A stretch of DNA of 64,000 nucleotides from Anaerolineales bacterium (lineage in GTDB: Bacteria; Chloroflexota; Anaerolineae; Anaerolineales; Villigracilaceae), in the NCBI GenBank assembly GCA_013140605.1, contig JABFSL010000030.1, forward strand, positions 1-64,000. Direction: 5' to 3'. Positions 4,949 to 32,969 of the stretch are shown piece by piece. A program made the position numbers and the translations under genes. The notes under the pieces are model-generated. The model was not told the DNA's origin and did not search any database. It saw only the letters and a program-made list of their open reading frames with translations. The first letter of the stretch is position 1. Each line of letters opens with the position of its first letter.

Positions 4949-4950
4949 CT

Positions 4951-7962: not shown

Positions 7963-7965
7963 AGA

Positions 7966-9030: not shown

Positions 9031-9033
9031 GTT

Positions 9034-11213: not shown

Positions 11214-11242
11214 AACGAAAGTATAACCCAAACGGAGCATCT

Positions 11243-13084: not shown

Positions 13085-14098
13085 TTACGGAAGGCGGCGC
13101 TTTCCAGATTTACTCCAAACCACACCACCGATCAACCCAAAAAGAGCGGCCAGCCCAGCAAACCCAAATGGATTTACCCGGCCGGGCGTAACGGTTACCG
13201 CAGGTTCTGAATTCGTTGGAACTTCGACACCGGCAATGGGAATATTTTGCGATCCGGGAATGGATATTGGCGTACCGGCGCTGTGCATCTGATCAGCGTG
13301 GCAGTCATTACATGCCTCCAACTTTGGTTTGAAGTCATGGTCTGGAACTTTATGGAAATCATCTGTTCCTTTTGAAGAACCGATGTGACACTTGACACAG
13401 GTTGCGCCAGCTTTGGCATGGTTTGAATGAACTGCATTCTGCGCGATCTCTTTATGGCAATTCTCGCACAAGGAGGAGATATCCGCATCAGATTGGCTGG
13501 CCAGCTTGATGGAAGTCGAGTGCGGGTTATGACAATTCGAACAAGTCATATTGTTTTGATAGTGAACGCTCGTCTTCCAGGTTTCCCATCCAAAGCGATC
13601 ATTGGTGTGACAGGTGCTGCATAGATCTGTGCTTTTATCAACCGGCATACTCTTATTCGGGTGGTCTGATGGAATGGGATTATGGCAGGCCTCACAGGTA
13701 ATTCCTTCAGCTTTCCAGGTTTCATCAGCAGGGTTATAACCGGTGACATGGCACTGTAAACAATTATTTGGTTTGCCCTGCTCCGTCCAGAAGTCATTGA
13801 ATTCCGAGTTGGACTCGACTGGCTTCGGCAACATGACGCTGCCATCAGGGATTTCCTTATGACATGCCAAACAATTTCCCTGCTGCTCCAGAGCGTCCCT
13901 GGCGCGAATATCTCCGTGCCCGCTTTGGTGCCATATCTCATATACATCAGAATGGCAGGTGTTGCAATTATTAGCCGTGGTTGTGGCTAATGGAGGATTT
14001 GGAATATCCGTTTGCGCCTTCGCCACAATCAATGCAGCGCCCGCGATCAGCAGTGTTAATATCAATGAAATGAAAAAACGCATAGTACGGGAAATCAT
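13085..14098 (-). CDS. secreted/membrane-anchored multiheme cytochrome c (9 CXXCH)
   Basis: Nine CXXCH motifs, N-terminal signal/TM, C-terminal TM; ATG at 14098 preferred because upstream ORF extension lies in a repeat element. Confidence 0.9.
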   Translation of the reverse strand: MISRTMRFFISLILTLLIAGAALIVAKAQTDIPNPPLATTTANNCNTCHSDVYEIWHQSGHGDIRARDALEQQGNCLACHKEIPDGSVMLPKPVESNSEFNDFWTEQGKPNNCLQCHVTGYNPADETWKAEGITCEACHNPIPSDHPNKSMPVDKSTDLCSTCHTNDRFGWETWKTSVHYQNNMTCSNCHNPHSTSIKLASQSDADISSLCENCHKEIAQNAVHSNHAKAGATCVKCHIGSSKGTDDFHKVPDHDFKPKLEACNDCHADQMHSAGTPISIPGSQNIPIAGVEVPTNSEPAVTVTPGRVNPFGFAGLAALFGLIGGVVWSKSGKRRLP

Positions 14099-14134
14099 TT
14101 TATATACTCCGTAAAAAGAAATATAAATGCAATT

Positions 14135-14310
14135 GACCTCTTGCAAAAGTCTTTTGCCACACACTTGCCCTTCGCGTCGCGTCGCGAAGCGAAGCCGATG
14201 TGGCGGGCAGTGCCAGGGGAGGTCACTGAGAAAAAAACAGAGTTTTAAAGGTTTTCTCAAAAGACTCTGCGTGCTCTGTGGCTACATTACACCTACTTAT
14301 GCAAGAGGTC
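14135..14310. repeat. MITE-like element with 11-bp terminal inverted repeats
   Basis: gacctcttgca at 14135-14145 and tgcaagaggtc at 14300-14310 are perfect inverted repeats; non-coding interior with further palindromes. Confidence 0.5.
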
Positions 14311-14486
14311 TAATGTAACTTTTACTTCCATGGCTTTGTTCGTAGTTTATATGTTTCCCAAAAGGAAGTAAATTCGGCAGTCACCCAATCTTTTTATTTA
14401 TTTTCCATCGCCGCCCCATTCACGTTCCCGATTTTCATTATTTTGCGTGGGGGATTTACCCCATTTCTTCCTTTGCTCGGAATATA

Positions 14487-14525
14487 AAATATTCCCCCAC
14501 TTTATCTTTAAGCGGGGGAATATTT
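14487..14525 (-). terminator. hairpin downstream of the nuclease-like gene
   Basis: AAATATTCCCCC ... GGGGGAATATTT perfect 12-bp stem with 15-nt loop. Confidence 0.6.
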
Positions 14526-14554
14526 GGGATGGATTTTAATTTGAGAATTTCAAG

Positions 14555-15355
14555 TCATGGCGCAGCAGGCGGAGTCACACTACCCGCAGACTGCCCAGCC
14601 TGTCTGAATGTTTGGGTGCAGGCTGAATCAGGCGGAACATCCAGCGCAGTTCCGAGTCCCTGGGTGATCAATTCAAGATTGACGAAAGTGTCGCCAACCA
14701 GGACATAACGCAATAGTCGGCCGCTATTATCCTTATCGGAAACATCCGCTATTAAATTTACATCCTTCCCATAAACGAACACCGAATTGATCTGTCTGGC
14801 CGTTTCACCCTTAAATTTGTCTTCGGGAGCCGCCACGCCAATATAACGGACAACATAAACAAGACCATCCATGAGGACTCTTATGGTGCTGCCATCAATC
14901 ACCTCCACCACCCTGCCAGTTTGTGGAGGATGATTAGGAATGCAATCCTTATTGATCGAGACTATGGATGTTATCCCTAATGTGGGAGAGGCTGTGAACA
15001 ACCCTTCTGTGGGAGTTAATGCGATCAAACCCAACGTGGGGGTTGCTGTTTCCAAAACAGGGACAGGTATCAGGGTTGGCAGATTATTCGTAGGGCTGGC
15101 AGGCATGGCTGTCGGCGGAATATTGAAGGCCAAAGGAGTCGCCGTCCATTCGGGAGTATTAGCAGGCGGTAATTCAGTTTCAGAAGCTGATAATTTTGGC
15201 AGTATCTCAGAGACCGCATCACGTAATGATTTGCCATCAGGCATATTCGTCAGCATGAAAAAAAAAGCAAAAACGCCGCCGACCAATAACAGGCTGACGA
15301 TCACAATGAATTTATTGATAATGTCCTGTTTCCAAAAATCAATAAAGCGCTTCAT
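14555..15355 (-). CDS. membrane-anchored thermonuclease (SNase)-like protein
   Basis: N-terminal TM, TP-rich linker, GRVVEVIDGSTIRVLMDGLVYVVRYIGVAAPE SNase-fold motif. Confidence 0.75.
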   Translation of the reverse strand: MKRFIDFWKQDIINKFIVIVSLLLVGGVFAFFFMLTNMPDGKSLRDAVSEILPKLSASETELPPANTPEWTATPLAFNIPPTAMPASPTNNLPTLIPVPVLETATPTLGLIALTPTEGLFTASPTLGITSIVSINKDCIPNHPPQTGRVVEVIDGSTIRVLMDGLVYVVRYIGVAAPEDKFKGETARQINSVFVYGKDVNLIADVSDKDNSGRLLRYVLVGDTFVNLELITQGLGTALDVPPDSACTQTFRQAGQSAGSVTPPAAP

Positions 15356-15388
15356 AATTTCCCTTTTCTGGAGTTGAAACCAAAATCC

Positions 15389-15670
15389 TTATCCTTCGTT
15401 TTGAGTCCGCTTCAAGGGGACCAGGCCCTTGAATACACGGATAATTGTCTGCAAAAAGTTTAATCCGCCGATCAAAATTGGCACAAGGGATATCACCAGG
15501 ACTGCGGTATGCCTGCTTCCAAACAAACCTGTCAGGGCGTAGCTTAGATCGAACGGCCCCAATGGGCGGATTTCGAAGTGGTAATAAAACAGCAGCCCCA
15601 TGCCAACGAGAGCAGAATCAATCAACAGGTCAAGCAGGAGCGAGAATGGTTTAAGACGGTGCTTTCTCAT
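15389..15670 (-). CDS. small membrane protein, unknown function
   Basis: ORF track; two hydrophobic segments; same strand between neighbouring genes. Confidence 0.5.
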   Translation of the reverse strand: MRKHRLKPFSLLLDLLIDSALVGMGLLFYYHFEIRPLGPFDLSYALTGLFGSRHTAVLVISLVPILIGGLNFLQTIIRVFKGLVPLKRTQNEG

Positions 15671-15687
15671 CGCGTCAATTCCTACAA

Positions 15688-18600
15688 TTAGGGATATGTC
15701 TCATTATGATCCGTTCCGTGACAGGCAAGGGCACAAGTTCCACCAGCAGCAGATGGGGTAAAAGCCGTCTGGCTGTTTAGACCGCCGGTAAATGTGACAA
15801 CGCTGGCGTCAAAATTTATCAAGTGGGCCTGCTCGCTGCCATGCGAATTATGACAGGTATAGCAGGTTGTTGTTGTGAATCCGCCTGACATATGTTCGCT
15901 ATGCAGGTTGTTTCCATCCTGGAAGCGCGTATTGGCTGTGGAATTACTGGTCACATAAGTGGCGTAATCATGACATTTGAAACAGATCTCAGTATTTGGA
16001 ACCGTTGGATCATTGCCGCCCGCGTTGACCGTTGAATAGTTCGCATCGCCAACTGCGGAACCGTCAAGAATGTGTAAAAGCGGCGAACCATGCGGGCCAT
16101 CCGCGCCTATGGCGGGCGTGGCGTTGGTATGGCAATCTGTACAATAAACGCGGCTGTTAACATCCCAACCAGCCACAAAGCCTCCAGCGGGCATGGTGGT
16201 ATTTTTGCCCGTTGTCATAAGCGGATGGAAACTTGCATTGGCAGGGTTGAAGGCGGCCGCAAGATCACGCGGGTCTTTAATTTGATCTGGATTTATGCTG
16301 GTAAGTTTCCGCAAGCCATCGGCCACGAAGGTTCTTGTACAGCCGTCCGTTACACAGCCCCAGCCTTCAGGCAGGTAGGATGGCAAAGTGGTGTAACTGG
16401 AATGGCATTTTAGGCAAACCTGATATTCATTTTCAGGCTGGCTTATGAAATTAAATCTGGTGGGCGCGCCGATGCCGTTGAATACAGGCTCCACGCCGAG
16501 TGCACCGGTATTCTGAAGTTTGGTGGCGGGGGCTGTATTGATGCCAGCGGAATCTTCATGCGGGCCGTGACAATCTCCGCATTCAGTATGGCGATTCGCG
16601 CCGCCAAACTGTGAGCCAAACACTTCATCGGCAACATGCGGACCGTTGGTCTGGTCAACGTTATGCCCGAAGAAACGGGTGCCCGTGTTGGTGTAGCTGC
16701 TGAAAGCTGTTTGAACGTTCGTGCCTGCGCCGCCAGTTGTGTGGCAATAATAGCAGAATCTTTCCTCCTGCCGCATCGGGTCAATGGGATTGGCGTCATT
16801 GACAAAATTCCATGGCGAGAGCAGTTTTACTTTATTCGATCCATGACCGCTGTCATGACAGTCCAAACAGGAGCCGCGGAAAGTGCTAACTACTGAATTA
16901 TGCATGGCAGACGACCATAATGTTTCATCGAGAGATGGTACAAGTTTTTCATCACTGAACGGAGTCTGGTTTCCCGCGCGGCCGTCACCATCATGACAGG
17001 AAACACAGAAGTTCTCATAATCTGACGGGTCATCAACTGCGTTTGCAACATAATCAAGAGTGTAGACGGTGGACGGAGTATCCACATTGAACAGGCGTAC
17101 CTTGCCTGCCGTATGCTGGGTCATCTCATGGCAGGTCTGGCAATCGCCGTCGGTAACGGAATCATTGCCGCTGACATGATGAGAAGCGCGCATGAAATCT
17201 CCAGCCGCACCAACGATCTGGCGACGGGGTGTGCCCTGCCCAAGATCCTGAGGTGTCGAATGGCAGGCACGGCAGCTTGCCATGAAACCGTCACTTGTAG
17301 CGGCGGATGAATCGGCGCTGTGTTGATGACAACTTACGCAATCCAATCCGCTGTAATCCATGCCACCATTATGATTGGCGCCGCCCGCATGATTCAACAT
17401 GGGTCCGCCGGGGTTGGCAGGATCGACATGGCAGGAGACACATAAGCGATTGGCTGTTGCGCTGACGCCATCATCGTAGGAATTCAAACCCGTTGTGGCC
17501 GTGAAATTAATTGGACCGGTTGTAACAATTGGATCCGTATTGGTTGTAACACGCACATCCGAACGAATGGAGAATAAATTATTACTTCCATGCGGGTCAT
17601 GACATTGTGTGCATAATAACTCAAAGGAGGCCTCAACACGCAGTCCTGCCCAGTCTTTATTTGAATGCGTGGATACAGTCACATTGCCATTCTCGTGGCA
17701 ACTTAAACAATACGCGTTTCCAGTCAATGAGGATAGCCCCAAATTGGGTCCCCGCGCCGCACTGTGATCGCGATGACAGGCAGAGCATTTATCGGTAATT
17801 GCATTAAACCCACCGTGCGGATCCGCATTTGCAGCAGTGACCGTGATCGTGATCGTATCCACACCGGTACGGCTGGATGCATCGGTTGCGCTGGCGGTGA
17901 TGGTGTGTGTTCCAACGGTTAGATTTCTTCTGCCAAAGCTGGAGCCGCTTTCGATGAGTCCGTCGCGGCTGGAATTCCATTGAATGGTGTCGCTAATATC
18001 GCCATTTACAGGGATAAGAGCCTGACCGGTAAAGAGGATATTTGCTCCCTGCGCAAAAGTGGTGCCGTTGATCGGGGAAATAATGGTAACAATGGGCGGT
18101 GTGTTACCTGCGGCATCTGTAACCGTAACGCGGATGGTAAATGAGCTATCCAACCCGCCAGAGTCAATGACGCTAGCTGTGATTCGATGAGTACCCAGGC
18201 TGAGCGTGCTGGTCGAAATACCAGCGCCAGAACCGAGGGCGCCATCTACATTGGAACTCCACTGAATATTGGCGCTGATATCTCCATCCAGGGTGTCAGT
18301 AGCTGTGCCGCCAAAACTGACGAGCGTTCCCTGTACATAGGTTGAATTATTGGCAGGGGTATCTATTGTAATAAGCGCCGGCGTATTTCCACTGGCATCT
18401 GTTATTGTGACTGTTATTGTGATTGAGGCAGTTCCATTAAAGGAATCCCTGGCTGTGGCAGTAACGGTATGAACGCCCAGGCTCAGATCACTCTTCGAAA
18501 AAGTTGCGCCGCTCCCAATGATGCCGTCAATACTGGAAGTCCATTGCAGGCCGGCGGTAATATCACCATCTTCCGTATCTGTGCCTGTGCCGGCAAATGT

Positions 18601-21600
18601 GATGGCCGTTCCCTGCACAAAAGATAAATTAGTTGCAGGTGTACTGATGGCAGCGGATGGAAGTGTATTCGGCTGGGTAATTTGCGATCCGCTTGCCGCC
18701 GCGCTGACGACATTCTCCGCAGTTGCATCAGCCACAGCCTGTACACGCCAATAATAAGTTGTATTGGGCATTAATCCAGTGGCGGGATATGAAGCGGCAT
18801 GAGCAATGGTCTTTGTGACCGAGGAGAAGTTTATATTATCTGTTGAACGGAAAATGTAAAAGCCTGTATCGTTGGCTGAATTGTCAGTCCAGTTCAAGGT
18901 CATGGAAGTTACCGCAACACTGGTGAAATTCAAGGCAGTTGGCGCATCCACCGAAGCGGATGTACTGGCATTGCCTTCGGCCGCCGCGTATACCTTCCAA
19001 TAATTGTTGGCGCTATTTGCCAGACCTGTTGCATTAAAGATCGTGGTGTTCGCCGCTGTCTGTCCAAAATAAGTGTAATTGATTCCATCAGTGGATGTAT
19101 AAATGCTGAAGCCATCTTCACCTGTGGAATTGTCAGTCCAATTCAAGGTAACAGATGAATTGGTCACATTTGTCAAATTCAAATTGCCGGGCGGATTAAG
19201 CGTGATGAGACCGGGAGTAAAAGTATAGACAGTGTCGAACGGCGGTTTTACATTCAAACTCGTTGTCTCGGTCACCGTACTCCATGTTGGGCAGGCACTG
19301 ATATTTTCCGCGGATATAAAACTATTGTTTGCGGTTCCCGTGATGCCGATGGATGCGGTCGCGCCCGCATTCGCATTGTTGGGGTAATACATAAAATCAA
19401 CAATACCTGTCCCCTCGTGCAGGACAACCCGCATACTGATACGGCTTCCAGCGCCATCGTTCCACTGATAATTCCACCACTCAAAAGTAAAAGTGCGGTT
19501 TGGAGCAGTGCCATTCGTTGTATAAGAAGCGGCGCTTCCCGCCCCTGCCCCTCCCAGGTTATCCCACAATGGCGCAAGGATCGGACGGGCAGCAACGTTG
19601 GAGGCATTATTGGCGCTATTATCAAGATCATTTAGAGTCAGAGAGTCTGCACCTGAATCATTGAAAGACAACCATCCATTTGAACTGACATAAACTTGAG
19701 TATAGCGGGTGCCCATATACCAAAATTCAAATCCCAAGGGAACGGGAGCAGACACCGCATTATTAACCAGAAGAGATGGAACACTGGTACCGCCAAGCGC
19801 CGCATTATACGTTGCTGTGCCGCAACTCCGTCCATAAGAATTGATCGTGGAACCGGCCATGTCGGTCAACATGCCAACATCGCCGCCGGGGATGGGAGCT
19901 GGATCATCGCCCGGCACAGGAGTCGGCAAGATCGGCCCGCCATAATTGAGCGCATCGAAAGCCTGAACAACGCCATAACCAAAATACGGATCGCGTCCCG
20001 CCGCGCCAAGGTCAAGCGCCTTGTTGAACAAGGCGGAAGTCAGGAAATTCCCATCGCTAAATTGAGATTGCCCGGCCAACAAAACAGCAACACCTGAAAC
20101 ATGCGCGGAAGACATGGATGTACCGGAAGCCAGTGAATAAGTTCCGCCGGGGAATGTGGATTTGATATCAACACCGGGCGCAGAAATACTGATGTGATCG
20201 CCGTAGGATGAGAAGGGCGCCGGCACAAAACTATTATCCACCGCGCTGACTGCGATTACGCCTGAATATCCAGCCGGGTAATAAATTGTATTATCGCCCT
20301 TATTGCCGCCTGCCGCCACAACGATCACGTTATGGGCAAGGGCATAATCTATGGCGTTCTGCAAAATATCGCTGGAACCAGTTCCGCCAAAGCCAAGGTT
20401 GATAACGCGCGCGCCCATATCAACGGCGTATACGATTCCTTCCGCCACCATTGCATGTGTGCCATAACCGTTATTATCCAAAACTTTGATCGGCAGGATG
20501 CGCGCGTTGGGGGCAATGCCCGCAATGCCAATGCCGTTATTCGCCTGTGCGCCAATGATGCCCGCCAAATGCGTGCCATGTCCCTGGTCATCACCGATAT
20601 TATTATTGCCGGCCACCATATTCCAGCCCTGCCAGTCATCCACGTAACCATTGTTGTCATCATCAATATTGTTGGTGTGTTTATCCGCGCCGTTTGCATC
20701 CAATCCGCTTTCGGCAGGATTCTGCCAAATGGAGTTGGATAGATCAGGATGGGTTACTTCCACGCCGCTATCGATCACAGCTACCAAAACCTGTGACATC
20801 ATCGGCAGGGCATCCCATGCTTGAGGTACTTGAATGGAGGTCAAATTGGATTGAGTGGAAAATTCCGGGTCATCCGGTGCGCCAGCCAACGCAACCAAAT
20901 AATTGGGGTCGGCAAATTCAAGGCTGCTGTTATTTTGCAACGCCGTCAGAACCGTATTAAGTTTTGACGCTTCAACATTTACAACCAGGCTGTCAAGCGA
21001 TTCGATGGAAGTGCTGTCAGTCGTTAAATTAATGCCAAGGTCCTTGATGACTTGAACAGCCTCGGCACGATTTTGCGGATCGATCTTAAGCACAAGCTGA
21101 TTCTGAACATGAGCAGATTCCAACTGTTGGGAGACGCTCAGGTCGGATGTGCCCGGGGTGGCGGTCGCCGTCGAAGCCGGATCAGACGTCGGGGTGGTTG
21201 ATGCGGTTCCAATCGCAGTGGCGGCCGCTGTGGGAGTCAGAGCAGGCAGTCCGTAGATCACGCGGCGCGCTGATTCGATCTCGCTTGCGGATGGAAGATC
21301 AGGGTTGTCTTCAGTGGTGATGATATGTTCGACATAATCAACAGCGCTTTCACAGCCTGCCTGGAAATTCTTTGAGATATATTTCCAACGCAGCGGCTTT
21401 TTATCCTTCAGAGTGGCGCGCATGGCGCTGCTGGTACAACCGGGCCCGGCGTGATAGTTGGCCGTTGAAAGTTTCCAAACTTCCTGCCACTCCATCTGGC
21501 TGACTGCGGCTTTGCCGGTCAGGTTTTTTGCGATCTGGTCGATCTGATGGAAATTTGCCTTGAGCGCCGCCGCAAAAACAGGGATGCTTTTTTCAGTACT

Positions 21601-22488
21601 ATCAAGATCGATCCTGTTGGAACAATTGGCGCAGTCGGCGCGCACTTGGATCAAAGTGGAACCGCGTAAAAACGCCCGTTCAGATGCAGAGATGCTGAGA
21701 TAATCTTTTTTACAATTTTCGACATCCAAAACATCCTTGCACATTTTTTTGAAGAAGGGGGTATTCCACATCAGGAGTGTGTCTGTTCCGTTTTCGGTCA
21801 ACTGGCCGATGCCATATTCAGGCGGAACATGTCTGGATGCCTGCGGCCACATCTGGCTTTCCTGAATCAGGAGATTCTTAAACATGTACGCGGGAATATT
21901 TTCCGTTACCGCGGCATTTAAGATGATTTCATCAAAACGGTTCTGCCAGATGAATACAAAAGGCCGCGCCGCAGTCATACCACAGGGATTGGCATAACCA
22001 TTGGGAAGCAGGGCGCTTCCATTACAGGCGCTTACATCCACATAACCAGCGGCGATCAATTTGCCGGCCAGATATGTCAGTTGACGATTCATCTGCAAGC
22101 CCGAAGCGGTATCTGGAGTTTCCAGCCAGGAATGGGTTATAGCTGTGGGCGTTGCCGTTGGAATTATTTTGGAAAGATTGTATTCACCGTTCTGCCAGCC
22201 TGTAAACAAATCATCCCCACAGGTTTGTTTGATCTCATCAGAAGTCGGTTCGCCTTCATGTGTGATATTGATGATACATGCGATCTGTCCACTATCCTTG
22301 CGGATTAAATTCCATGCGAAACCAGTCTCACCACTAGCTGCGTTTACCACCTGACTGCTGAACAGCAAACTAAAGCCAAGCACGATCAACAGGAATGCTT
22401 GTGGAATGGCTTTGATTTTTGCCAGCAAGGCAGGCAGGAACTTTCTGTGGTGAGTATTTTTGTTGGACATGGAGCGGACATTTTTCAT
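15688..22488 (-). CDS. giant secreted protein: lytic-transglycosylase-like + subtilisin-like S8 protease + FN3 + Ig/PKD-like repeats + multiheme cytochrome c (15 CXXCH, 1 CX3CH)
   Basis: Single 2266-aa ORF; signal peptide; IQESQMWP...EYGIGQLTENG; S8 triad motifs AVIDSGVEVTHP / GHGTHLAG / GTSMSSAHVSG; two FN3-like NLTNVTNSSVTLNWTDNS repeats; three PKD-like repeats; C-terminal CXXCH series. Confidence 0.92.
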   Translation of the reverse strand: MKNVRSMSNKNTHHRKFLPALLAKIKAIPQAFLLIVLGFSLLFSSQVVNAASGETGFAWNLIRKDSGQIACIINITHEGEPTSDEIKQTCGDDLFTGWQNGEYNLSKIIPTATPTAITHSWLETPDTASGLQMNRQLTYLAGKLIAAGYVDVSACNGSALLPNGYANPCGMTAARPFVFIWQNRFDEIILNAAVTENIPAYMFKNLLIQESQMWPQASRHVPPEYGIGQLTENGTDTLLMWNTPFFKKMCKDVLDVENCKKDYLSISASERAFLRGSTLIQVRADCANCSNRIDLDSTEKSIPVFAAALKANFHQIDQIAKNLTGKAAVSQMEWQEVWKLSTANYHAGPGCTSSAMRATLKDKKPLRWKYISKNFQAGCESAVDYVEHIITTEDNPDLPSASEIESARRVIYGLPALTPTAAATAIGTASTTPTSDPASTATATPGTSDLSVSQQLESAHVQNQLVLKIDPQNRAEAVQVIKDLGINLTTDSTSIESLDSLVVNVEASKLNTVLTALQNNSSLEFADPNYLVALAGAPDDPEFSTQSNLTSIQVPQAWDALPMMSQVLVAVIDSGVEVTHPDLSNSIWQNPAESGLDANGADKHTNNIDDDNNGYVDDWQGWNMVAGNNNIGDDQGHGTHLAGIIGAQANNGIGIAGIAPNARILPIKVLDNNGYGTHAMVAEGIVYAVDMGARVINLGFGGTGSSDILQNAIDYALAHNVIVVAAGGNKGDNTIYYPAGYSGVIAVSAVDNSFVPAPFSSYGDHISISAPGVDIKSTFPGGTYSLASGTSMSSAHVSGVAVLLAGQSQFSDGNFLTSALFNKALDLGAAGRDPYFGYGVVQAFDALNYGGPILPTPVPGDDPAPIPGGDVGMLTDMAGSTINSYGRSCGTATYNAALGGTSVPSLLVNNAVSAPVPLGFEFWYMGTRYTQVYVSSNGWLSFNDSGADSLTLNDLDNSANNASNVAARPILAPLWDNLGGAGAGSAASYTTNGTAPNRTFTFEWWNYQWNDGAGSRISMRVVLHEGTGIVDFMYYPNNANAGATASIGITGTANNSFISAENISACPTWSTVTETTSLNVKPPFDTVYTFTPGLITLNPPGNLNLTNVTNSSVTLNWTDNSTGEDGFSIYTSTDGINYTYFGQTAANTTIFNATGLANSANNYWKVYAAAEGNASTSASVDAPTALNFTSVAVTSMTLNWTDNSANDTGFYIFRSTDNINFSSVTKTIAHAASYPATGLMPNTTYYWRVQAVADATAENVVSAAASGSQITQPNTLPSAAISTPATNLSFVQGTAITFAGTGTDTEDGDITAGLQWTSSIDGIIGSGATFSKSDLSLGVHTVTATARDSFNGTASITITVTITDASGNTPALITIDTPANNSTYVQGTLVSFGGTATDTLDGDISANIQWSSNVDGALGSGAGISTSTLSLGTHRITASVIDSGGLDSSFTIRVTVTDAAGNTPPIVTIISPINGTTFAQGANILFTGQALIPVNGDISDTIQWNSSRDGLIESGSSFGRRNLTVGTHTITASATDASSRTGVDTITITVTAANADPHGGFNAITDKCSACHRDHSAARGPNLGLSSLTGNAYCLSCHENGNVTVSTHSNKDWAGLRVEASFELLCTQCHDPHGSNNLFSIRSDVRVTTNTDPIVTTGPINFTATTGLNSYDDGVSATANRLCVSCHVDPANPGGPMLNHAGGANHNGGMDYSGLDCVSCHQHSADSSAATSDGFMASCRACHSTPQDLGQGTPRRQIVGAAGDFMRASHHVSGNDSVTDGDCQTCHEMTQHTAGKVRLFNVDTPSTVYTLDYVANAVDDPSDYENFCVSCHDGDGRAGNQTPFSDEKLVPSLDETLWSSAMHNSVVSTFRGSCLDCHDSGHGSNKVKLLSPWNFVNDANPIDPMRQEERFCYYCHTTGGAGTNVQTAFSSYTNTGTRFFGHNVDQTNGPHVADEVFGSQFGGANRHTECGDCHGPHEDSAGINTAPATKLQNTGALGVEPVFNGIGAPTRFNFISQPENEYQVCLKCHSSYTTLPSYLPEGWGCVTDGCTRTFVADGLRKLTSINPDQIKDPRDLAAAFNPANASFHPLMTTGKNTTMPAGGFVAGWDVNSRVYCTDCHTNATPAIGADGPHGSPLLHILDGSAVGDANYSTVNAGGNDPTVPNTEICFKCHDYATYVTSNSTANTRFQDGNNLHSEHMSGGFTTTTCYTCHNSHGSEQAHLINFDASVVTFTGGLNSQTAFTPSAAGGTCALACHGTDHNETYP
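17830..18670 (-). repeat. three tandem about 280-bp repeats encoding Ig/PKD-like domains
   Basis: NTLPSAAISTPATNLSFVQGT / NTPALITIDTPANNSTYVQGT / NTPPIVTIISPINGTTFAQGA unit starts at about 18670, 18387 and 18105. Confidence 0.75.
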
Positions 22489-22806: not shown

Positions 22807-24243
22807 TTACGGGGTAACCGTAAAGTTTACCGTGCTGGCATGACAGCGCAGACAGAGTGAGCGGTTGTCCATGCGGAGGAGGGTACTACCACCCGCCAAG
22901 GAAGCACCATCGGGCGGAGTTACAGCCGGGGTATCAGCGGTACCAGCAAGTGCGGTCATTGCGGCAGTCGTGCCGTGGGAGACGTGGCAAGCCACACAAG
23001 AACGGCTGACTGAAGTACCGCCGCCAGCGGTACTCGTGCCATCCATGGAGAGGCGGATATCACCGGAGGCGTGGCGGAACATATAGGTGGTGTCGCCGCT
23101 GGAGCGAACATCAGCCCATAGCCAGCGTGGGGTCGGAGCAGTTGTGCCGGTATAGTAATACGGCAAACAACCCGTCGCATCCACGGCGCTTACGGAATTA
23201 ATGTCGACAGGAGGCACGTAACCAACATCGCCAATGCGAGTGCAATAGGCGCTTTCATCTGTGTTGTTGCGCAGACGGCTATTGTTGAAATAGCGGTCAT
23301 GGCACTGAGCACAGAAGTATGCCGTATTGACAGCCGCCGGGATGTAGGTCTGCGTAGCAGGGGCAGCGTTCAACGGCTGATAGGTGTTGTTGGCATTACC
23401 GTTGTTATAGTCACCAGCGGCAAAGGGACCGCAGGCATAGGTATTGGGGGCAGTGCCACAAGTTAACGTTTGAGCCCCAATCGTGTACCATTCACTGCCA
23501 TTGGCAGCGTAGTTATCAGGAACCGTCCAACCTGCGGTCAAGCCGCTCACAGGGAAGTTACCGCCGCTCCAATTAACCGAAGTGGCAGGTGCCGTGAAGC
23601 CGCCAGAACCCTGGGGCTGCCAGCGTAGTAAACGGTAGGAGGAAACCTTAACCGTACAGGACTCTGTAAGCGGTGTGGAAGCGGCAAGAGTCACATTACA
23701 ACCTGTGGTCTGCGTGGTGGCATTGGTAAAGCCGGCTTTACCGTGCGGGTCGTGACAGGTGGTGCACTCAAGAACCATCCCCGCATTAGTGCTGTTATTA
23801 GCGCCAGAACCCCAAACTGTACCAGCAGCACCCACTCCATGTGTAGAAGTAGTGGCCTTTGAGGTAGCATCAGAACCAGCCTTAAATGTATGTGAGCCAT
23901 TCCAGGCTGTAGCCATGAGCGCATTGGTGAAACCACCTCCAAACAAGGATGCACCGTCAGTTCCTTCAACGCTGCCGTAGGGAGAACCAGCCGCCATGTA
24001 TACACCGTCCACAACATTCGTGGCAGCGCCACTGCCGTTGTGGCAGGTAAGGCAAAGAGCTTCGGGATCCATGATCAGCAGTGAATTACTACCGACCTTG
24101 GCAGAGTGGGCACGGTGACAGCCGGCACACGCATCTGTGGTGGCCGTAAAGCCTCCATGAGGGCCGTTATCGGCCATGGCAACTGTAGCAAGGGCTAAAA
24201 CCAGCAATAAGCCCAAAGCTAAAGCAAACAAAAATTTCTTCAT
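22807..24243 (-). CDS. secreted hexaheme cytochrome c (6 CXXCH)
   Basis: Signal peptide MKKFLFALALGLLLVLALATVAMA; CAGCH, CLTCH, CTTCH, CAQCH, CVACH, CLRCH. Confidence 0.9.
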   Translation of the reverse strand: MKKFLFALALGLLLVLALATVAMADNGPHGGFTATTDACAGCHRAHSAKVGSNSLLIMDPEALCLTCHNGSGAATNVVDGVYMAAGSPYGSVEGTDGASLFGGGFTNALMATAWNGSHTFKAGSDATSKATTSTHGVGAAGTVWGSGANNSTNAGMVLECTTCHDPHGKAGFTNATTQTTGCNVTLAASTPLTESCTVKVSSYRLLRWQPQGSGGFTAPATSVNWSGGNFPVSGLTAGWTVPDNYAANGSEWYTIGAQTLTCGTAPNTYACGPFAAGDYNNGNANNTYQPLNAAPATQTYIPAAVNTAYFCAQCHDRYFNNSRLRNNTDESAYCTRIGDVGYVPPVDINSVSAVDATGCLPYYYTGTTAPTPRWLWADVRSSGDTTYMFRHASGDIRLSMDGTSTAGGGTSVSRSCVACHVSHGTTAAMTALAGTADTPAVTPPDGASLAGGSTLLRMDNRSLCLRCHASTVNFTVTP

Positions 24244-24394: not shown

Positions 24395-25609
24395 TTAGTA
24401 AGACCAGATTTGAATACGATTGTTGTCCCTGTCGGCAATATACAATCGTCCGCCCGCATCAATGCAGATATCGATCGGGAAATTGAATTCGCCTTCCAAA
24501 GTTCCAAATTCACCGAAATTAAAGAGGAACTTTGGTTCGCTTCCAGAAACATCATAAACACGAATATATTGTCCAACCGAATCGGCTACATGCAGGCGGT
24601 CCTTATCACTCATCCAAATACCGCGCGGCAAATTAAGTGAATCTTCGTTGGAACCAAATGCAAAGAAGGTTTTATATTGCATATCAATTGTCCAGACCGA
24701 AACACGGCCGTTATTGCCATCTGAAACATAGAAATTTCCGAGGCTGTCAACAACGACACTATTGGGGAAGGACAACTGTCCATTTTCCTTTCCTTCAACA
24801 CCAAATTCTTTGATCTGCGGGTTGAAACCAAGTAAACTCCCGTTGATGTCTGCCGCCGAATAGATCAACACCCCATGTTTTCCACTGATGATATTCGTAA
24901 CCAGCAGGTTACCGTCCGGGTCAAAGCGCAAACCAAGCGGTGACCATTCTGTTTGCTGTGGACCAGGCACACTCTTTGCTTCCTGATCGGGCAGTTTGTA
25001 ATCAACGGTCTTGGTTATATTGTTAAAGTAGTACAGTGTGCCCTGGGGCAAAGCGCTGCCAACTTGAGCGGTGACAAATTCACTCAAGGTCAGATCCTTG
25101 TCGATCATGCCGTCCAGGAAATTGCCGTCCGCGTCGAAGATCGCGACAACGTTGTTGTAAGTATCGTTGACAAAAACGCGCCCAGCCGCATCAACAGCAA
25201 TATAGGCTGGCTTGCGATTTGAATTCGATGTACCGGGAGGCGCAAAACTCTTAATGAAATTACCGTTGCGGTCAAACATCTTGATCAAACGTTCGCCTGT
25301 CGACTCGACCGCATATATTCGCTGGCCATCCGGTGAAACGGCAACACCCACAGGCCCATCCAGCCCAATGATGGAGGATACATAGGCAGGCGGGTAGCTA
25401 ATGGCCCCGGTAAGGGGAACCAACATTTCAGGCAAAGGCTCGGGCTTGAGTAAATAACGCACGAAAAAATAACCGACACAGCACAAAAGTGATAAAAGCA
25501 AAATCAGCAGGAGTAAAAGCTTGCGGCGTTTACGCTCATCCTGTTTATCCTCGGGAGAAATATTCTGCGGGAAATCTTTCGATTCAAGTTCAATATCAGG
25601 GGTTGTCAT
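24395..25609 (-). CDS. NHL-repeat beta-propeller protein, membrane-anchored
   Basis: N-terminal TM; repeated G(V/F)D..GN(F/L).V.D..N.R(V/I) NHL signatures. Confidence 0.85.
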   Translation of the reverse strand: MTTPDIELESKDFPQNISPEDKQDERKRRKLLLLLILLLSLLCCVGYFFVRYLLKPEPLPEMLVPLTGAISYPPAYVSSIIGLDGPVGVAVSPDGQRIYAVESTGERLIKMFDRNGNFIKSFAPPGTSNSNRKPAYIAVDAAGRVFVNDTYNNVVAIFDADGNFLDGMIDKDLTLSEFVTAQVGSALPQGTLYYFNNITKTVDYKLPDQEAKSVPGPQQTEWSPLGLRFDPDGNLLVTNIISGKHGVLIYSAADINGSLLGFNPQIKEFGVEGKENGQLSFPNSVVVDSLGNFYVSDGNNGRVSVWTIDMQYKTFFAFGSNEDSLNLPRGIWMSDKDRLHVADSVGQYIRVYDVSGSEPKFLFNFGEFGTLEGEFNFPIDICIDAGGRLYIADRDNNRIQIWSY

Positions 25610-25621: not shown

Positions 25622-26575
25622 TTATTTTTTTAATCCAGCTTCCACGCGTTGAATACCAATGGAAGCGGTAAAGTTATTTACATCGATCTTCAGCGCGGCC
25701 TCATATGCCAATTTTGCATTCGGCAGATCGTTCATGGCCTCATAGGTTCTTCCTAAACCGGCAAATGTTGGGGCGAAATCGGGTTTGGCTTCAGCAGATT
25801 TTTGCAACAGGTTAAGGGATTTTTGATAATCCTTGTCTGAGTACGCCATCATGCCGCGCGCATAATCAACAAGTTCGGGCATCGCGAGGGCGTCATAGCT
25901 TTCAGACATGGCTTTATAGGCTTCAAGATAATCCGGCACAAAAGTTGTAGCCGCATGGAACATATTGACAGCTTTGGCATAATCCTTGTTTCCAGCATAA
26001 GCAAGTCCCAGCTTGTACATCGAGTCCGCATCCGTCTCACTCCAATTGACCGCATTTTCCAAAGGTAGAATTGCCTGATCGGGCTGGTCAAGTTGAAGAT
26101 AACTATCACCCAAATAATAGGAAGCAGCCTGCAGTTGTTTATCCAGACCGGGCATTTCTTCATCCTTGCGGCTGTCAATAAATTTCTGTAATGGCACGAG
26201 CGCAAGCTCTGGGTTTCCATTATTTGCGTAGGAAATCCCCAATACAAAATCCACTCTTGCGTTGTCTGGGTATTCCTTTTGTACCTGCAATGCCTGTTCA
26301 ATGGCATCATCAAAACGGCCGTAGAGCAGGTACGTTTCAGTCAACGCCAGGCGGACATCTGGATTTCCTGGGTCATCACGTACTGCCTGCTCGGCCCCGG
26401 CAATTGACTGTTCCACAATGGGTGCCTGGGTTTTAGCATAGCGGTCAAAGTAGTAATAGGTTCCAAAACTCACCAGTCCAGCTACTAGTACGATCGTCAG
26501 TAAAATGACTATTCGCTGTATCTGATAAGTGCTCGAAAACAAGCGCTCATTAAGAAGTGTGAGGTTTTTTTTCAT
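25622..26575 (-). CDS. membrane-anchored TPR protein
   Basis: N-terminal TM; successive TPR-like helices. Confidence 0.8.
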   Translation of the reverse strand: MKKNLTLLNERLFSSTYQIQRIVILLTIVLVAGLVSFGTYYYFDRYAKTQAPIVEQSIAGAEQAVRDDPGNPDVRLALTETYLLYGRFDDAIEQALQVQKEYPDNARVDFVLGISYANNGNPELALVPLQKFIDSRKDEEMPGLDKQLQAASYYLGDSYLQLDQPDQAILPLENAVNWSETDADSMYKLGLAYAGNKDYAKAVNMFHAATTFVPDYLEAYKAMSESYDALAMPELVDYARGMMAYSDKDYQKSLNLLQKSAEAKPDFAPTFAGLGRTYEAMNDLPNAKLAYEAALKIDVNNFTASIGIQRVEAGLKK

Positions 26576-26656: not shown

Positions 26657-28168
26657 TTATGGATTCTTAAGTACTCCAGCGGGGTGACAACGCGTGCAGG
26701 ATATATTCTGATGACAGGTATAGCAAACCTGATCTCCACGCGCGCGATATTCCTCGGCGTGTGTGTAAAGCATATCTTCGGGATGGGAAAGGTTATGGCA
26801 GGCGCCATTGTTACAGAAGGATTGTCCGTGGCAGTTGTAGCATTCCTGCTTCTGTTCTTCTGTTACAGAGCGATGATCAACCGTCCAGCGGAAATCTGTA
26901 TGAGATGATGGCAATCCCCCAACGATCACAGGCGCTTCGATCAGCAGGTCACTGCCTCTGCCGACAATTGGTACTGTGTGACAAAGGTTACACTCGCCGC
27001 TGATAGTGATGGTTTCCCCGTTTCCCTGACCATCAATTACAACATGCTTGTCATCATGGCAGCGGAAACAGCCTAAAGAAGGGGTGTGGCGTTCATTGTT
27101 TGGATTCGTATCCCAGGTCAAATTCATATAGGGAAAATTGGTGTCTGAATATATATCTTTAAGTTCCGCAATCGCATCAGCGGCTAATTTTTCCTTTTGG
27201 CTTTTTGATATTGACGCAATTGTTTGGGAGGCATAATATTCAACCAAACCATCCATGGCAGCGAAAGCCTCGGTCTCTGAAGCATAAGATCCCTGCAACA
27301 ACTCAACAGCCTTCGCGCGAATAAAAGGCAGATCGCGCGAGATCAACTCATCAGAAATGGCCTTATCCACAGATTGTTCAGGGTAGGGAATGTAATGAGC
27401 CGCGCGGTTATGACAGTCAATACAATCCAGCTTGCGGATGTTCCCTTCGGCGCGGGCTTTCTCAACAAAAGCAGTTTGTCCCATACCGACCAGATCGCGC
27501 GCAAAATATTCCTTAAGCGACCCGTCAGGCTGACGGACACCCACCCACGCGATTACCTGTCTCTGTTCATCCAATGCAATGTAATAAACTTCGCTGCTGA
27601 CATGCCAGTGAATGCCATCGCCGATCATGCCTGTACTGGTCTGCTTGCCGCCCATCTTTAAGATTAGAGTCGTTTGAACCAAGGTATTGGCTTCATCATT
27701 ATCGTAATGACGAATGGTCTTAACGATATTATCCTTGAATGTGGTCGGGGAATGACAGCCTTCACAAGTTTCACGGGCCGGGCGTAAATTCTTTACCGGG
27801 CTCTTAATAGGTCGGGAATAATCGCCTGTGATCTCGCCCACTAATTGTCGCGTGCCATCGATCTTTGATTGGATGAACGAAGCCGCTCCGGGTCCCACGT
27901 GACATTGAGCACATTCAACCTTCGCATGGGGAGATGCCTGATAGCGCACCCACTGCGGATCCATGGAATGGCAAACTGTTCCGCAAAACTCGGAGCTTTC
28001 ACTATAAACGAATGCCTGAACCCCTCCGACCAGCATTCCCAAAGCGACGACGAGTACTGCCAAAATACCAAATGCCAGCTTCATTCTATGAGAACGCTGG
28101 CGCAGATCAATCGTAATGGTTGGCCAGCCTTTTTTAATTCTTTCGCGCACAGATTTTATGATGCCCAT
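26657..28168 (-). CDS. NapC/NirT-like membrane multiheme cytochrome c (8 CXXCH plus CX3CH and CX4CH)
   Basis: N-terminal TM followed by EFCGTVCHSMDPQW; further CXXCH motifs; ATG at 28168 preferred over 28207. Confidence 0.85.
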   Translation of the reverse strand: MGIIKSVRERIKKGWPTITIDLRQRSHRMKLAFGILAVLVVALGMLVGGVQAFVYSESSEFCGTVCHSMDPQWVRYQASPHAKVECAQCHVGPGAASFIQSKIDGTRQLVGEITGDYSRPIKSPVKNLRPARETCEGCHSPTTFKDNIVKTIRHYDNDEANTLVQTTLILKMGGKQTSTGMIGDGIHWHVSSEVYYIALDEQRQVIAWVGVRQPDGSLKEYFARDLVGMGQTAFVEKARAEGNIRKLDCIDCHNRAAHYIPYPEQSVDKAISDELISRDLPFIRAKAVELLQGSYASETEAFAAMDGLVEYYASQTIASISKSQKEKLAADAIAELKDIYSDTNFPYMNLTWDTNPNNERHTPSLGCFRCHDDKHVVIDGQGNGETITISGECNLCHTVPIVGRGSDLLIEAPVIVGGLPSSHTDFRWTVDHRSVTEEQKQECYNCHGQSFCNNGACHNLSHPEDMLYTHAEEYRARGDQVCYTCHQNISCTRCHPAGVLKNP

Positions 28169-28169
28169 T

Positions 28170-29087
28170 TTATTGCATGCTTCCTTCGGCGTTTTTTTCC
28201 AACACAAGTTCCGTAACTTCCTCTACAACTTCTTCAATCTGAACAGGCTCTTCCAAATCTTCAGCATCCTCAAGCGGGATCTCGATCTCCACTGGCCAAA
28301 GCCTGTTTTGTATCGCGGCAGAAGCCTGCTCGAGGTAGGCCAGTTCGAGAGGGTGTTCCTCCTCCATCTCTTCAATGGTCATGTTCCCATTGAAAATACT
28401 TAAGTTCAATTTTTTGATCACTGAGTGATAGAAGTGCCAGGTCAGAATGGCAAGTACCGCCAGTATGGCTTCCCAGCGATGGAGCACGCGACTGACAGGG
28501 ATGACCCAGCCGGCAGGCAGGATCATTGTCAACTGGGCGGGGAACCATTGGATAATTCCTGTGACCACCATGACGACAGTCCCCCATACCAATGCCCAAT
28601 ATTCAGCTTTTTCTTCAAAGTTATAACGATCAAAACGAGGTCGGCGAACGGCAAGACCAAGATTGAATTTGATCATTTGAATCGCGTCAGTCAAATCGCT
28701 CCAGACGGGGAGCATCTTTCCGAGGCGGTGATGAACAAAAGCCTCATCAACAAACTTGATAACGTGATAAAGCGACTGAATGCCAAAAACAAAGGCCGCG
28801 ACATGATGTACCTGCCGCGACGCTTCAATACCTCCAAATATGGAGAGGATGAAGCTGCCCAAGAGAGTGTTGTAGTAAGTTTGGGCCAGACCCGTAAGTG
28901 CCAATGTGGTAAAAGAAAAGATCAGGACAAAGTGCTCAACACGCTGTCCAAGAGAGAATCGAATCACATAACGGCTTCCATCTGAAGCAATGCGCAAACG
29001 CTTAACTGCCTCCAACGCATCACGATAATAGATGTAACGCTTCATTGTGGCTGGAATCTTGGGTAATTTAACTTTTGACTCTTCCAT
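28170..29087 (-). CDS. cytochrome b family membrane subunit (formate dehydrogenase gamma / b561-like)
   Basis: Multi-TM with conserved histidines (RVEHFVLIFSFTTLALTGLAQ, RQVHHVAAFVFG, LHRWEAILAVLAILTWHFYHSV); ATG at 29087. Confidence 0.8.
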   Translation of the reverse strand: MEESKVKLPKIPATMKRYIYYRDALEAVKRLRIASDGSRYVIRFSLGQRVEHFVLIFSFTTLALTGLAQTYYNTLLGSFILSIFGGIEASRQVHHVAAFVFGIQSLYHVIKFVDEAFVHHRLGKMLPVWSDLTDAIQMIKFNLGLAVRRPRFDRYNFEEKAEYWALVWGTVVMVVTGIIQWFPAQLTMILPAGWVIPVSRVLHRWEAILAVLAILTWHFYHSVIKKLNLSIFNGNMTIEEMEEEHPLELAYLEQASAAIQNRLWPVEIEIPLEDAEDLEEPVQIEEVVEEVTELVLEKNAEGSMQ

Positions 29088-29088
29088 C

Positions 29089-30333
29089 TTACTTTCCTGT
29101 TTTTTGTGCTTCGGATGTTTCCACAGATGCACTGGATTTTTTCCTGAGCTTATCTGCCACACGACGGCGGGCATCAATTGCAATGTACACAACAAACCCA
29201 CCTATGAGAGTAGGGATGAAAAATTTATAAAAGGCTGTGATCGCAAACAATAGGGGAGTATCTTCCCAGGTGGGCGAATAATGACTTAACCATGCCTGCG
29301 GAAAAGTAATACCCGCATCCGGGTGACACTGCTGACAGGTCTCTTGCAGGTTGGCCGGATACACGGAAGACATCTCATTTTCAGGGGCTTGAATGTTATG
29401 AACACCGTGACAGTCATAACAAGTGGCCTTTGTAATTTTCACATCACCTGCTTTACGTGAGAAATCAACTGTACGCCCATGAAAATCATCAAGATAAGTT
29501 TGGAAGACATTGGTTGAAATGTCATACTTGCTCATCAGTTCATTATCCGCATGACAATTTCCGCACAATGTGATCGAGTCTGCCCTAAAATTTACATTAT
29601 CCGGGCCATCCACTTTATGGCTGCCATGACAGTTATTACAGGTCGGCACATCAGGATTGGAATCCGCTTCAAGCGCCGCTCCGTGAACGCTGCTTTCATA
29701 AGTCGTATAAACTGAGGTGTGACATTTACTGCATATTTGAGCGATCTTTGTACGCGGCTCACTTGGGGATGTAATATTGTGACTGCCATGGCAATCCACG
29801 CATATCGGCGCATAACGATTCCCCCGCTCCAATACGCGAGTATGTTCGCTGTCTGTTATTTCCTGAAATTTTTCTTCATGACATTTTTGGCAGGAGGAAT
29901 TAATTTCCATGCTGACAGCGCGCGCATCCTGATAGGGTGTAACCTCAAAAACAGGCGCACCCTGGCTGTCTCCGCCTAAAATCTGTGAATGACATACATT
30001 ACAAGATTGTTTCTGTGAATTTTTGTGGGGATATTCCTGTTGAGCATCGTGACATGACCGGCAACCTTCAATATGATTGGAGCCTTCATGTTCCCTGGGA
30101 TCGTAATATAAAGACATTGTTTTGCCGTCAGCAAAGCGCCCGAGCATATCTGGATTGGAATGACAGCCAAGGCAATCTCCTGTTTGATGCGGGCTTGGCA
30201 CTTTCAAGGCTGCGGTAGGGGTTGGGCTGGCTTCCTGAGCCAAAACAGAAGGGGAATCTGTGCTGTCAAAAAGCGCCCAACCCAGGGTGAAAAAAATAAC
30301 GGACAACAACACAAAAAATCTATATCGCATCAT
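29089..30333 (-). CDS. decaheme cytochrome c with C-terminal TM anchor
   Basis: Ten CXXCH motifs, signal peptide, C-terminal FKFFIPTLIGGFVVYIAI TM. Confidence 0.9.
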   Translation of the reverse strand: MMRYRFFVLLSVIFFTLGWALFDSTDSPSVLAQEASPTPTAALKVPSPHQTGDCLGCHSNPDMLGRFADGKTMSLYYDPREHEGSNHIEGCRSCHDAQQEYPHKNSQKQSCNVCHSQILGGDSQGAPVFEVTPYQDARAVSMEINSSCQKCHEEKFQEITDSEHTRVLERGNRYAPICVDCHGSHNITSPSEPRTKIAQICSKCHTSVYTTYESSVHGAALEADSNPDVPTCNNCHGSHKVDGPDNVNFRADSITLCGNCHADNELMSKYDISTNVFQTYLDDFHGRTVDFSRKAGDVKITKATCYDCHGVHNIQAPENEMSSVYPANLQETCQQCHPDAGITFPQAWLSHYSPTWEDTPLLFAITAFYKFFIPTLIGGFVVYIAIDARRRVADKLRKKSSASVETSEAQKTGK

Positions 30334-30873: not shown

Positions 30874-31518
30874 TTACAACTTGGGTTTTAAATTATGCCG
30901 AACTGCATAAGCTGCGGCCTCAGATCTGTTATTGAAATTCAATTTTTGCAATATATTTTTGATGTGATATTTAACTGTATTCTCACTGACGCCCAATTGC
31001 TCCGCAATGGCTTTATTGGGAAGCCCCTGCCCAAGAAAACCAAGCAATTCAACTTCGCGCGCAGTCAGGTTCCCGTCAGGCGCGCCACTATAACTGCCTT
31101 GTTGGGCAATATAATTTATCAGCCTCGCTGTAATGGAACTGGGCATGGGCGGCTCGCCTTTTTCCAAACCATGCAGTAACTTTATAAATTCATCCGAGTT
31201 CAGGCTTTTTAGCAAATATCCCCTGGCACCTGCGCGCAATGCTTCAATAAGTTTTTCATCTTCCTGGGAAATGGTGAGCATGATAACTCGTATCTCAGGG
31301 AGGGCATCTGTAATTTGACGTGTGGCATCTATCCCGTTCATGACCGGCATATCGATATCCATAAGCACCACATCCGGCCTTAATCTTCTGGCTTCGTTGA
31401 CAGCCTCCTGTCCATTGCCCGCTTCACCCGCCACCTGCATCCCGGCGGCTTTCAGCAAACTAACCATTCCATCACGAAATAATGCGTGATCATCTACTAC
31501 CAGGAAACGCAATGACAT
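30874..31518 (-). CDS. NarL/LuxR-family response regulator
   Basis: FLVVDDHALFRDGM receiver; LTAREVELLGFLGQGLPNKAIAEQLGVSENTVKYHIKNILQKL HTH. Confidence 0.95.
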   Translation of the reverse strand: MSLRFLVVDDHALFRDGMVSLLKAAGMQVAGEAGNGQEAVNEARRLRPDVVLMDIDMPVMNGIDATRQITDALPEIRVIMLTISQEDEKLIEALRAGARGYLLKSLNSDEFIKLLHGLEKGEPPMPSSITARLINYIAQQGSYSGAPDGNLTAREVELLGFLGQGLPNKAIAEQLGVSENTVKYHIKNILQKLNFNNRSEAAAYAVRHNLKPKL

Positions 31519-32969
31519 CAGGATTCTCCTTGAAACGCCAGAGGCAATCTAACAATCACTTTCGTCCCCTGCCCTTTTTCCGAAATGATCTCGAATGACG
31601 CTCCGATTGCACTGGCGCGTTCGCTCATTGTTTCCAGACCAAAATGAGGCTTGCGGTCTGACAAATTTTCAGCGGGATCAAACCCGACCCCGTTATCGCG
31701 AATCGTTACTGTAAGGGTCTTCTGTTGATTCACTTGAAGCATCACAGTGGCACGCGTCGCTCCGGCATGTTTGCGGACATTAGCCAGCGCCTCCTGAACG
31801 ATGCGCAGAAGCTGCAGATCACTGCCGTCAGGAACTTGAATTCGATCAATACTTTCATTTATTACTTCCGTTGGAATATCACTGTAGCGTTCAAAATTAA
31901 TGACATACTCGGTCAGGATCAAACCAATATCCTGCCCTTCCCCAATATCTGTTTTTAAGTCGAGAATGGCCTGACGAAGGTCGGCAAAAACTTTTCCAGC
32001 GGCCTCATCCAATTGACGAAGTTCAGTGATCGCATCAGGTAATTTCGTCTGCTCAATGAGCATACGCACTGCCGTGGCTTTATTTCTGACATACCCCAAT
32101 ATCTGGGCAGTGCTGTCATGCAATTCACGGGCCAGGCGATGGCGCTCCTCCATGACAGCCCTATAACGGGCATCATTCATCAATTCCTTTAATCTTAATT
32201 CCTCCTCCAAACTTTCAGCTGTTTTATTAAAGGCATTGATCAGATCATCAATCTCGTCATTTCTGGCTTCCAGGGGAATACGAGCAGACAAATCGCCAAG
32301 CGCGTATCGTTCCAATGGAAGCCGCAAAATTTCCACCCGTTTCACGATCAAAAAATGAGCGATACCATAAAAAATAATCGTAAATACCATGGTAAGGATA
32401 AAAGAGAAAACAAGGTCGGTCCACAGAGCGCCATATACTTGATCGGTCAACTCCACCAGTGAATAGTCTGTAATGATCACTCCCAATTCCTTTTGTAAAG
32501 GATCATGGCATTGGTAACAAGCCGGTTCATTGGGAACAAGGATACTGCTGCGAAGCATGGGTTCTTTGAAATCAGACGTATTAAGGATGATGCTGTGTCG
32601 CTGCACGATCCCTGTTGGTTGATGACATTCCACACACCCGGGCGAACTCAATGTTGGGGCGGGATTAAAATCAGCAGGCTGATCTGTCATCTTCAACTGA
32701 GCGCTCGCGTCAAATATGGCAACGTGTAAAATATTTTGTTGATTTCCAATATCCACCAATGCACTTTGGAGCATATCCCGGTCATTATTTAACATGCCAT
32801 GCCGCAGCCCGCCGCGCGCCAATTCCCCCAACTGGACAGCCGATAGTTCAATATTTTTCAGCAAGATCGCTTTTTCACGGTAATAATGCAGAATCGAATA
32901 ACCCCAAAAGGATATCAAAATAGGCAAGGCCAATCCCAATGCTACTTTCCAGCGAATACTTCGAAACAT
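31518..32969 (-). CDS. NarX/DegS-like sensor histidine kinase with two CXXCH motifs in the extracytoplasmic domain
   Basis: Two TMs, CVECHQ and CYQCHD between them, HAMP, RHRLARELHDSTAQ H-box, HATPase DNGVGFD. Confidence 0.92.
   Translation of the reverse strand: MFRSIRWKVALGLALPILISFWGYSILHYYREKAILLKNIELSAVQLGELARGGLRHGMLNNDRDMLQSALVDIGNQQNILHVAIFDASAQLKMTDQPADFNPAPTLSSPGCVECHQPTGIVQRHSIILNTSDFKEPMLRSSILVPNEPACYQCHDPLQKELGVIITDYSLVELTDQVYGALWTDLVFSFILTMVFTIIFYGIAHFLIVKRVEILRLPLERYALGDLSARIPLEARNDEIDDLINAFNKTAESLEEELRLKELMNDARYRAVMEERHRLARELHDSTAQILGYVRNKATAVRMLIEQTKLPDAITELRQLDEAAGKVFADLRQAILDLKTDIGEGQDIGLILTEYVINFERYSDIPTEVINESIDRIQVPDGSDLQLLRIVQEALANVRKHAGATRATVMLQVNQQKTLTVTIRDNGVGFDPAENLSDRKPHFGLETMSERASAIGASFEIISEKGQGTKVIVRLPLAFQGES

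Follow-up and report, generated by a model that had tools for sequence, protein, structure and literature searches.

In Geobacter, the subtilisin-like protease OzpA, Ig domains and the multiheme cytochrome OmcZ belong to one maturation unit, and homologous operons occur in bacteria and archaea, according to excerpts of a published account (PMC9473688). The same excerpts describe filaments of OmcS and of OmcE in which a histidine of one subunit coordinates a heme in the adjacent subunit. In anaerobic methanotrophic archaea (ANME), the giant cytochromes termed MHC-B have a peptidase M6-like N-terminus and an S-layer domain (PMC9012536). Here we examine a gene that shares features with these systems. 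It lies in a stretch of 64,000 nucleotides from an Anaerolineales bacterium of the Chloroflexota (contig JABFSL010000030.1 of assembly GCA_013140605.1, positions 1 to 64,000; hereafter the window), where it occupies 15688..22488 and encodes a single chain of 2266 amino acids that joins an SLT-like lytic transglycosylase domain and an S8 (subtilisin-like) protease to a multiheme cytochrome tail. Judged by its sequence, this fusion gene is genuine, conserved, modular and unusual, a variant of the electron-export cytochromes already known. No description of an SLT-S8-cytochrome fusion was found in the literature searched, most subscription journals being outside its coverage.

The nearest functional analogue is OmcZ together with OzpA. 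The parts are divided between two genes there and united in a single chain in the fusion. OmcZ, an octaheme cytochrome, has its Ig domains at the C-terminus, and the excerpts mention no SLT domain. A profile of the C-terminal cytochrome module of the fusion (cytC) matched none of the solved cytochromes at E up to 1, OmcZ included, and by this search the fusion cytochrome shows no homology to OmcZ. In two Geomonas genomes, S8 genes were found without cytochrome neighbours in two 15-kb stretches. The nearest structural precedent is ANME MHC-B, in which a peptidase-like part is likewise joined to a multiheme cytochrome of giant size, and which is thought to cross an envelope that is not an outer membrane (PMC9012536). 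The two differ in peptidase family (M6 versus S8), in the SLT domain that the fusion adds, and in host (archaea versus bacteria), and a Pfam scan of the fusion returned no S-layer domain.

The fusion gene, its domains and the genes of its cluster all lie on the minus strand. Its frame of 2266 codons is uninterrupted, and the longest run in the other five frames of 15688-22488 is 158 codons. From the N-terminus, the translation begins with a hydrophobic segment that may serve as signal peptide or signal anchor (residues 28-51, 22336..22407), followed by the SLT-like domain (residues 111-390, 21319..22158), a proline/threonine-rich linker, an S8 prodomain (residues 456-540, 20869..21123), the S8 protease domain (residues 541-850, 19939..20868), a beta-rich domain of unknown kind (residues 876-1095, 19204..19863), two FN3 units matched by Pfam fn3 in two stretches (residues 1096-1275, 18664..19203), three Ig/PKD-like repeats (residues 1277-1554, 17827..18660) and the cytochrome tail. 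The three repeats measure 94, 94 and 90 amino acids (about 280 bp each) and have 52/94, 37/94 and 37/94 residues in common. An earlier note on this DNA had described an intact frame with SLT-like, S8, FN3, Ig and heme-binding parts, and this description is accurate, including its pair of FN3-like units, its three repeats of about 280 bp, and its count of 15 CXXCH motifs and one CX3CH in the tail.

Our search for relatives covered 61 genomes, and further loci were drawn from outside that set. Full-length orthologs with open frames were found in four genomes of the genus (G016, 2181 amino acids; G007, 1736; G022, 2157; G364, 2050), and, outside the 61, a locus titled Anaerolineae bacterium (L111, 2133 amino acids) has all four modules; two further copies are split across two contig ends (G019) or cut by a contig end (G036). 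The identity between the window and G016 copies is 77% for the SLT domain, 74% for S8, and 75% and 76% for the N- and C-terminal halves of the tail (cytN and cytC), compared with 50-56% for the beta-rich and FN3 parts, which is the pattern expected if selection keeps the enzymes and the cytochrome. The beta-rich domain also recurs in unfused S8 proteins of relatives (L044 and L046, matched by phmmer).

The S8 domain is readily recognized, as Pfam S8 matches residues 566-839 with an E-value of 6e-54 (183.7 bits against a cut-off of 21.8). Every fused row that covers the site of the catalytic Asp has this residue, and His and Ser occur in 16/16 rows, so the protease, as the earlier note had it, appears intact. 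Its nearest solved structures are thermitase and AK.1 protease. The putative prodomain resembles Fervidolysin_NPro (Pfam E 0.0019, below cut-off) and is 69% identical in the G016 copy. A second, unfused S8 gene with a Fervidolysin-type prodomain is located at 55208-56521 of the window and falls far from the fused S8 domains on the tree. In one relative, a protein of 1074 amino acids combines S8 with a sortase domain; its gene lies directly before an SLT-type gene, with no cytochromes (L046 of G044, 6423-11302).

The assignment of the SLT-like domain is less direct. The window copy scores 15.4 bits, under the Pfam SLT cut-off of 21.3 bits, and its identification relies on relatives: 12/14 aligned members match Pfam SLT with an E-value no higher than 1, the best at 1.2e-6. 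The catalytic-type Glu (in LIQESQ) is invariant in 10/10 fused copies. Among the characteristic motifs (Glu in the ES motif, G..Q and Y.AG), the Glu and the Tyr are invariant, and the Gln is replaced by His in 5/10 fused copies. An SLT profile found no match in the PDB even at E 10. Nearly all genomes of the genus also carry an SLT-only paralog, which in this genome is located directly behind genes for a ccmA-like ABC-transporter ATPase, ccmB and ccmC (L031, G000 contig 122, 469-4491) and scores 25.8 bits against Pfam SLT. In 13 of the relatives' loci, too, ccmC adjoins this paralog. The arrangement is independent, if circumstantial, evidence that links this SLT family to the export of cytochrome c.

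The 15 CXXCH motifs of the tail fall at residues 1568-2209 and the CX3CH (CALACH) at 2252; shuffled versions of the tail contain a mean of 0.08 and a maximum of 2 CXXCH. Two modules can be distinguished, cytN with nine CXXCH (16765..17826) and cytC with six CXXCH and the invariant CX3CH (15691..16764), the latter being the conserved core of the family. The CX3CH is kept in 34/34 loci with a copy long enough to include it (L082 and L102 among these are identical in sequence), in records titled Chloroflexota, Bacteroidetes, Armatimonadetes, Spirochaetes, Nitrospinota and Deltaproteobacteria, and it is therefore very probably a true heme site. Single-sequence PDB searches with the tail and with the neighbouring hexaheme cytochrome as queries returned nothing useful.

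Comparison of loci indicates that the family is defined by its C-terminal cytC module, and that S8 and SLT come and go. Besides the full fusion there are SLT-S8-cytC proteins (L100, 1699 amino acids; L106, 1600; L110, 1517), S8-cytC proteins (L102, L104, L112 and L117), an SLT-cytC protein (L101) and loci where cytC follows an N-terminal part with neither S8 nor SLT; such smaller versions, down to the cytochrome alone, were found across Anaerolineae. On the cytC tree, the minimum number of changes is 7 for S8, 5 for SLT and 2 for cytN. A branch (88/97) separates the fused S8 domains (15 rows, 14 of them different) from 8 unfused ones, and another (89/86) separates the 10 fused SLT domains from 15 others; neither branch is strongly supported, and the outgroups are small. 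As the fused domains of each kind group together, the simplest reading would be one early fusion of S8 and one of SLT, with later losses or exchange. The earlier note had considered that a real fusion would be contradicted if every close homolog had lost S8 or the CXXCH domains, and independent copies keep both. Support was obtained for the architecture that it described, for an intact catalytic triad in S8 and for a setting of electron export. Its term 'self-contained machine' is too strong in that versions of the cluster exist without S8, SLT or both, and wall penetration and self-processing are predictions. What that reading lacked was context: as far as comparison of the loci can tell, the fusion is one variant of a modular, cytC-defined family, and its neighbour in a conserved electron-transfer cluster is an OmcS-like hexaheme.

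Several related proteins depart from these layouts. One frame of 2484 amino acids has 47 CXXCH and tandem cytN-like repeats (L087 of G325, 8874-16325), and an S8-Ig-cytN frame with 15 CXXCH has a C-terminal half that does not match cytC, a different second cytochrome module (L040 of G036, 10944-15707). Three records titled Bacteroidetes or uncultured bacterium (L113, L115 and L116) encode cytN-cytC proteins of 1725-1772 amino acids with 19 CXXCH, adjoined by NHL genes in L113 and L115.

In order of transcription, the cluster begins with a histidine kinase and a response regulator, both of NarL/NarQ type (30874..32969), and continues with a multiheme cytochrome (29089..30333; a decaheme, with ten CXXCH in the G016 ortholog), a membrane cytochrome b of the formate dehydrogenase gamma type (28170..29201), a NapC/NrfH-type octaheme cytochrome that is the likely quinol-side entry (26657..28207), a TPR protein (25622..26575), an NHL-repeat beta-propeller protein of conserved position (24395..25609; Pfam NHL, E 8e-25) and the hexaheme (22807..24243). 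The fusion gene comes next, followed by an SNase-like protein that is conserved downstream of it (14555..15355) and a further multiheme cytochrome (13085..14260; nine CXXCH in the G016 ortholog). This order is kept in G016, G007 and G364, as far as read, and on the contig ends of G019; G022 lacks the NapC-like gene at the expected position. The hexaheme and cytC profiles match the same 7/57 genomes of the genus, with one extra weak cytC match. Independent genomes would give this overlap with a probability of 3.8e-9; these genomes are not independent, and the co-occurrence is taken only as strong linkage.

Other genes lie around this cluster. A heme synthesis cluster (hemA, hemC, hemD, hemB, an AhbD-like radical SAM gene, hemE, hemY and hemL) occupies 2682-12526 of the window, and 33182-39806 encodes a guanylate-cyclase-type/AAA/TPR protein and then one that has HEAT repeats and a cyclic-nucleotide-binding domain. 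In G019 and G366 the cytC gene is followed by one for a protein of 675-696 amino acids with 12-13 CXXCH (L177, 779-2866; L176, 2503-4527), which is a hexaheme with an extra C-terminal part.

The hexaheme carries six CXXCH, and its similarity to OmcS extends beyond these motifs. A profile built from 23 hexahemes, compared with solved proteins, matches OmcS (6ef8; its filaments are also represented by 6nef) with an E-value of 1e-6 in one collinear stretch over five heme motifs; 6r2q_A scores slightly above OmcS, but its match is broken into several short segments that each cover a pair of CXXCH. When OmcS was shuffled with its six CXXCH fixed, 0/1000 sequences reached the 32.8 bits of the real one (mean 1.1, maximum 26.0), which supports a homology, albeit remote, beyond the heme motifs. 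This relationship concerns the neighbouring hexaheme, and the fusion itself is not OmcS. OmcS ends right after its last heme site, as do most family members. A survey of bioanode genomes by BLASTP placed all OmcS homologs in Geobacter except one in an actinobacterium, and none in this phylum (PMC7399161). Even within Geobacter an OmcS-like sequence alone is no proof of a wire (PMC12977616), and the hexaheme should be considered a candidate nanowire subunit only. The hexaheme profile had no match in the Geomonas genomes, which made them unusable as a synteny control for an OmcS cluster. The start of the fusion tail, in cytN (NADPHGGFNAITDKCSACHRDH), resembles that of the hexaheme (DNGPHGGFTATTDACAGCHRAH), with the common pattern PHGGF.A.TD.C..CHR.H, and the hexaheme profile scores there.

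The envelope that such carriers would have to cross probably lacks an outer membrane. Neither Omp85 nor LptD was found in the genome, which is 96% complete, by searches that were both positive in an E. coli control; a one-membrane envelope is therefore likely, as has been taken to be the case for Anaerolineales, which were also noted earlier as being without porin-cytochrome conduits (PMC7399161). Such conduits (MtrCAB, Pcc) resemble the fusion in the proposed carriage of electrons across the outer cell layer and differ from it in having a porin part. Cytochrome c assembly genes are present in the genome. Ardenticatena maritima, a monoderm isolate of the Chloroflexota with surface multiheme cytochromes, exchanges electrons with electrodes (PMC5808234).

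Given these observations, we lean, with confidence slightly better than even, towards the fusion being the exported terminal cytochrome of a monoderm electron-export (or uptake) system, equipped with enzymes of its own for opening the wall and for maturation. From the quinone pool, electrons would travel by way of the membrane cytochrome b and the NapC-like octaheme to the decaheme and then to two outward carriers made side by side, the OmcS-like hexaheme and the 16-site tail of the fusion. The SLT domain would open peptidoglycan locally, such that the bulky heme chain could pass through the wall or lodge in it. The S8 domain would remove its own prodomain together with the SLT portion attached to it. 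It may also trim the FN3/Ig region or a partner cytochrome, much as OmcZ is trimmed by OzpA, which is a protein of its own. A more specific version, which we offer only tentatively, is that the fusion is the monoderm counterpart of a porin-cytochrome conduit, one polypeptide that would cut through peptidoglycan, mature itself and anchor or start an OmcS-like filament. The start shared by tail and hexaheme would then let the tail offer the interface used between hexaheme subunits, and docking through histidine coordination of the kind described for OmcS and OmcE would be a guess by analogy.

Several points weigh against the export reading. The expression, activity and localization of the fusion are predictions from sequence. 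AlphaFold gave no usable model of either the tail (mean predicted local distance difference test score, pLDDT, of 32 with a 16-row alignment) or the hexaheme (mean pLDDT of 35 with 23 rows). The cluster versions that lack S8, SLT or both imply that neither enzyme is essential to the whole pathway. The oxyanion Asn of S8 is replaced in two genomes, by Asp in L104 and by Gly in L085/L117 (identical sequences). Moreover, the presence of NapC and of regulators of NarQ/NarL type is also compatible with a chain that respires a soluble acceptor.

The alternative that survives best, though we think it rather unlikely, is that the fusion is a self-processing polyprotein, cut by S8 at the prodomain and the Ig/FN3 region into a free wall enzyme, a protease and an extracellular cytochrome; the fusion would then do no more than keep the products at the same dosage, as if OmcZ and OzpA were made as a single polypeptide. 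The prodomain directly precedes S8, long linkers and the fast-evolving beta/FN3 parts separate the conserved domains, and the Ig domains of the OmcZ precursor are removed by OzpA in the excerpted account (PMC9473688). Such cleavage is only predicted, however; the Ig repeats precede the cytochrome here and follow it in OmcZ, and S8-less copies keep the same cytC module. It seems improbable that the fusion is a respiratory cytochrome for a soluble acceptor such as a nitrogen oxide rather than for export to solids or partners. The NarQ/NarL-type kinase and regulator and the NapC/NrfH-type cytochrome would suit that role, but no reductase of such a kind was recognized in the cluster, and the OmcS-like hexaheme, the very long heme chain and the wall enzyme would be left unexplained. 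Slightly less probable again is the view that SLT and S8 are retired or structural spacers and that the cytochrome alone works. That each domain is absent repeatedly (the cytC tree requires no fewer than 7 changes for S8 and 5 for SLT) and that two genomes have lost the oxyanion Asn could be read in this way, yet the catalytic residues are kept in all copies and the domains are as conserved as the cytochrome. An artefact of assembly or frameshift joining two or three genes, which the earlier note had raised as a risk and for which the draft state of the genome (132 contigs) might speak, can be rejected with near certainty, since several separate assemblies hold independent orthologs of the same open architecture with domain identities to the window of about 37-77%.

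The fusion bears on how electrons may exit walled cells that have no outer membrane, where porin conduits cannot serve. The conserved, genetically linked parts include a candidate device for opening the wall and for maturation, joined to the proposed terminal cytochrome, with an OmcS-related hexaheme beside it. Relatives that have S8 and SLT and relatives that lack them form a natural series in which the contribution of either domain can be tested.

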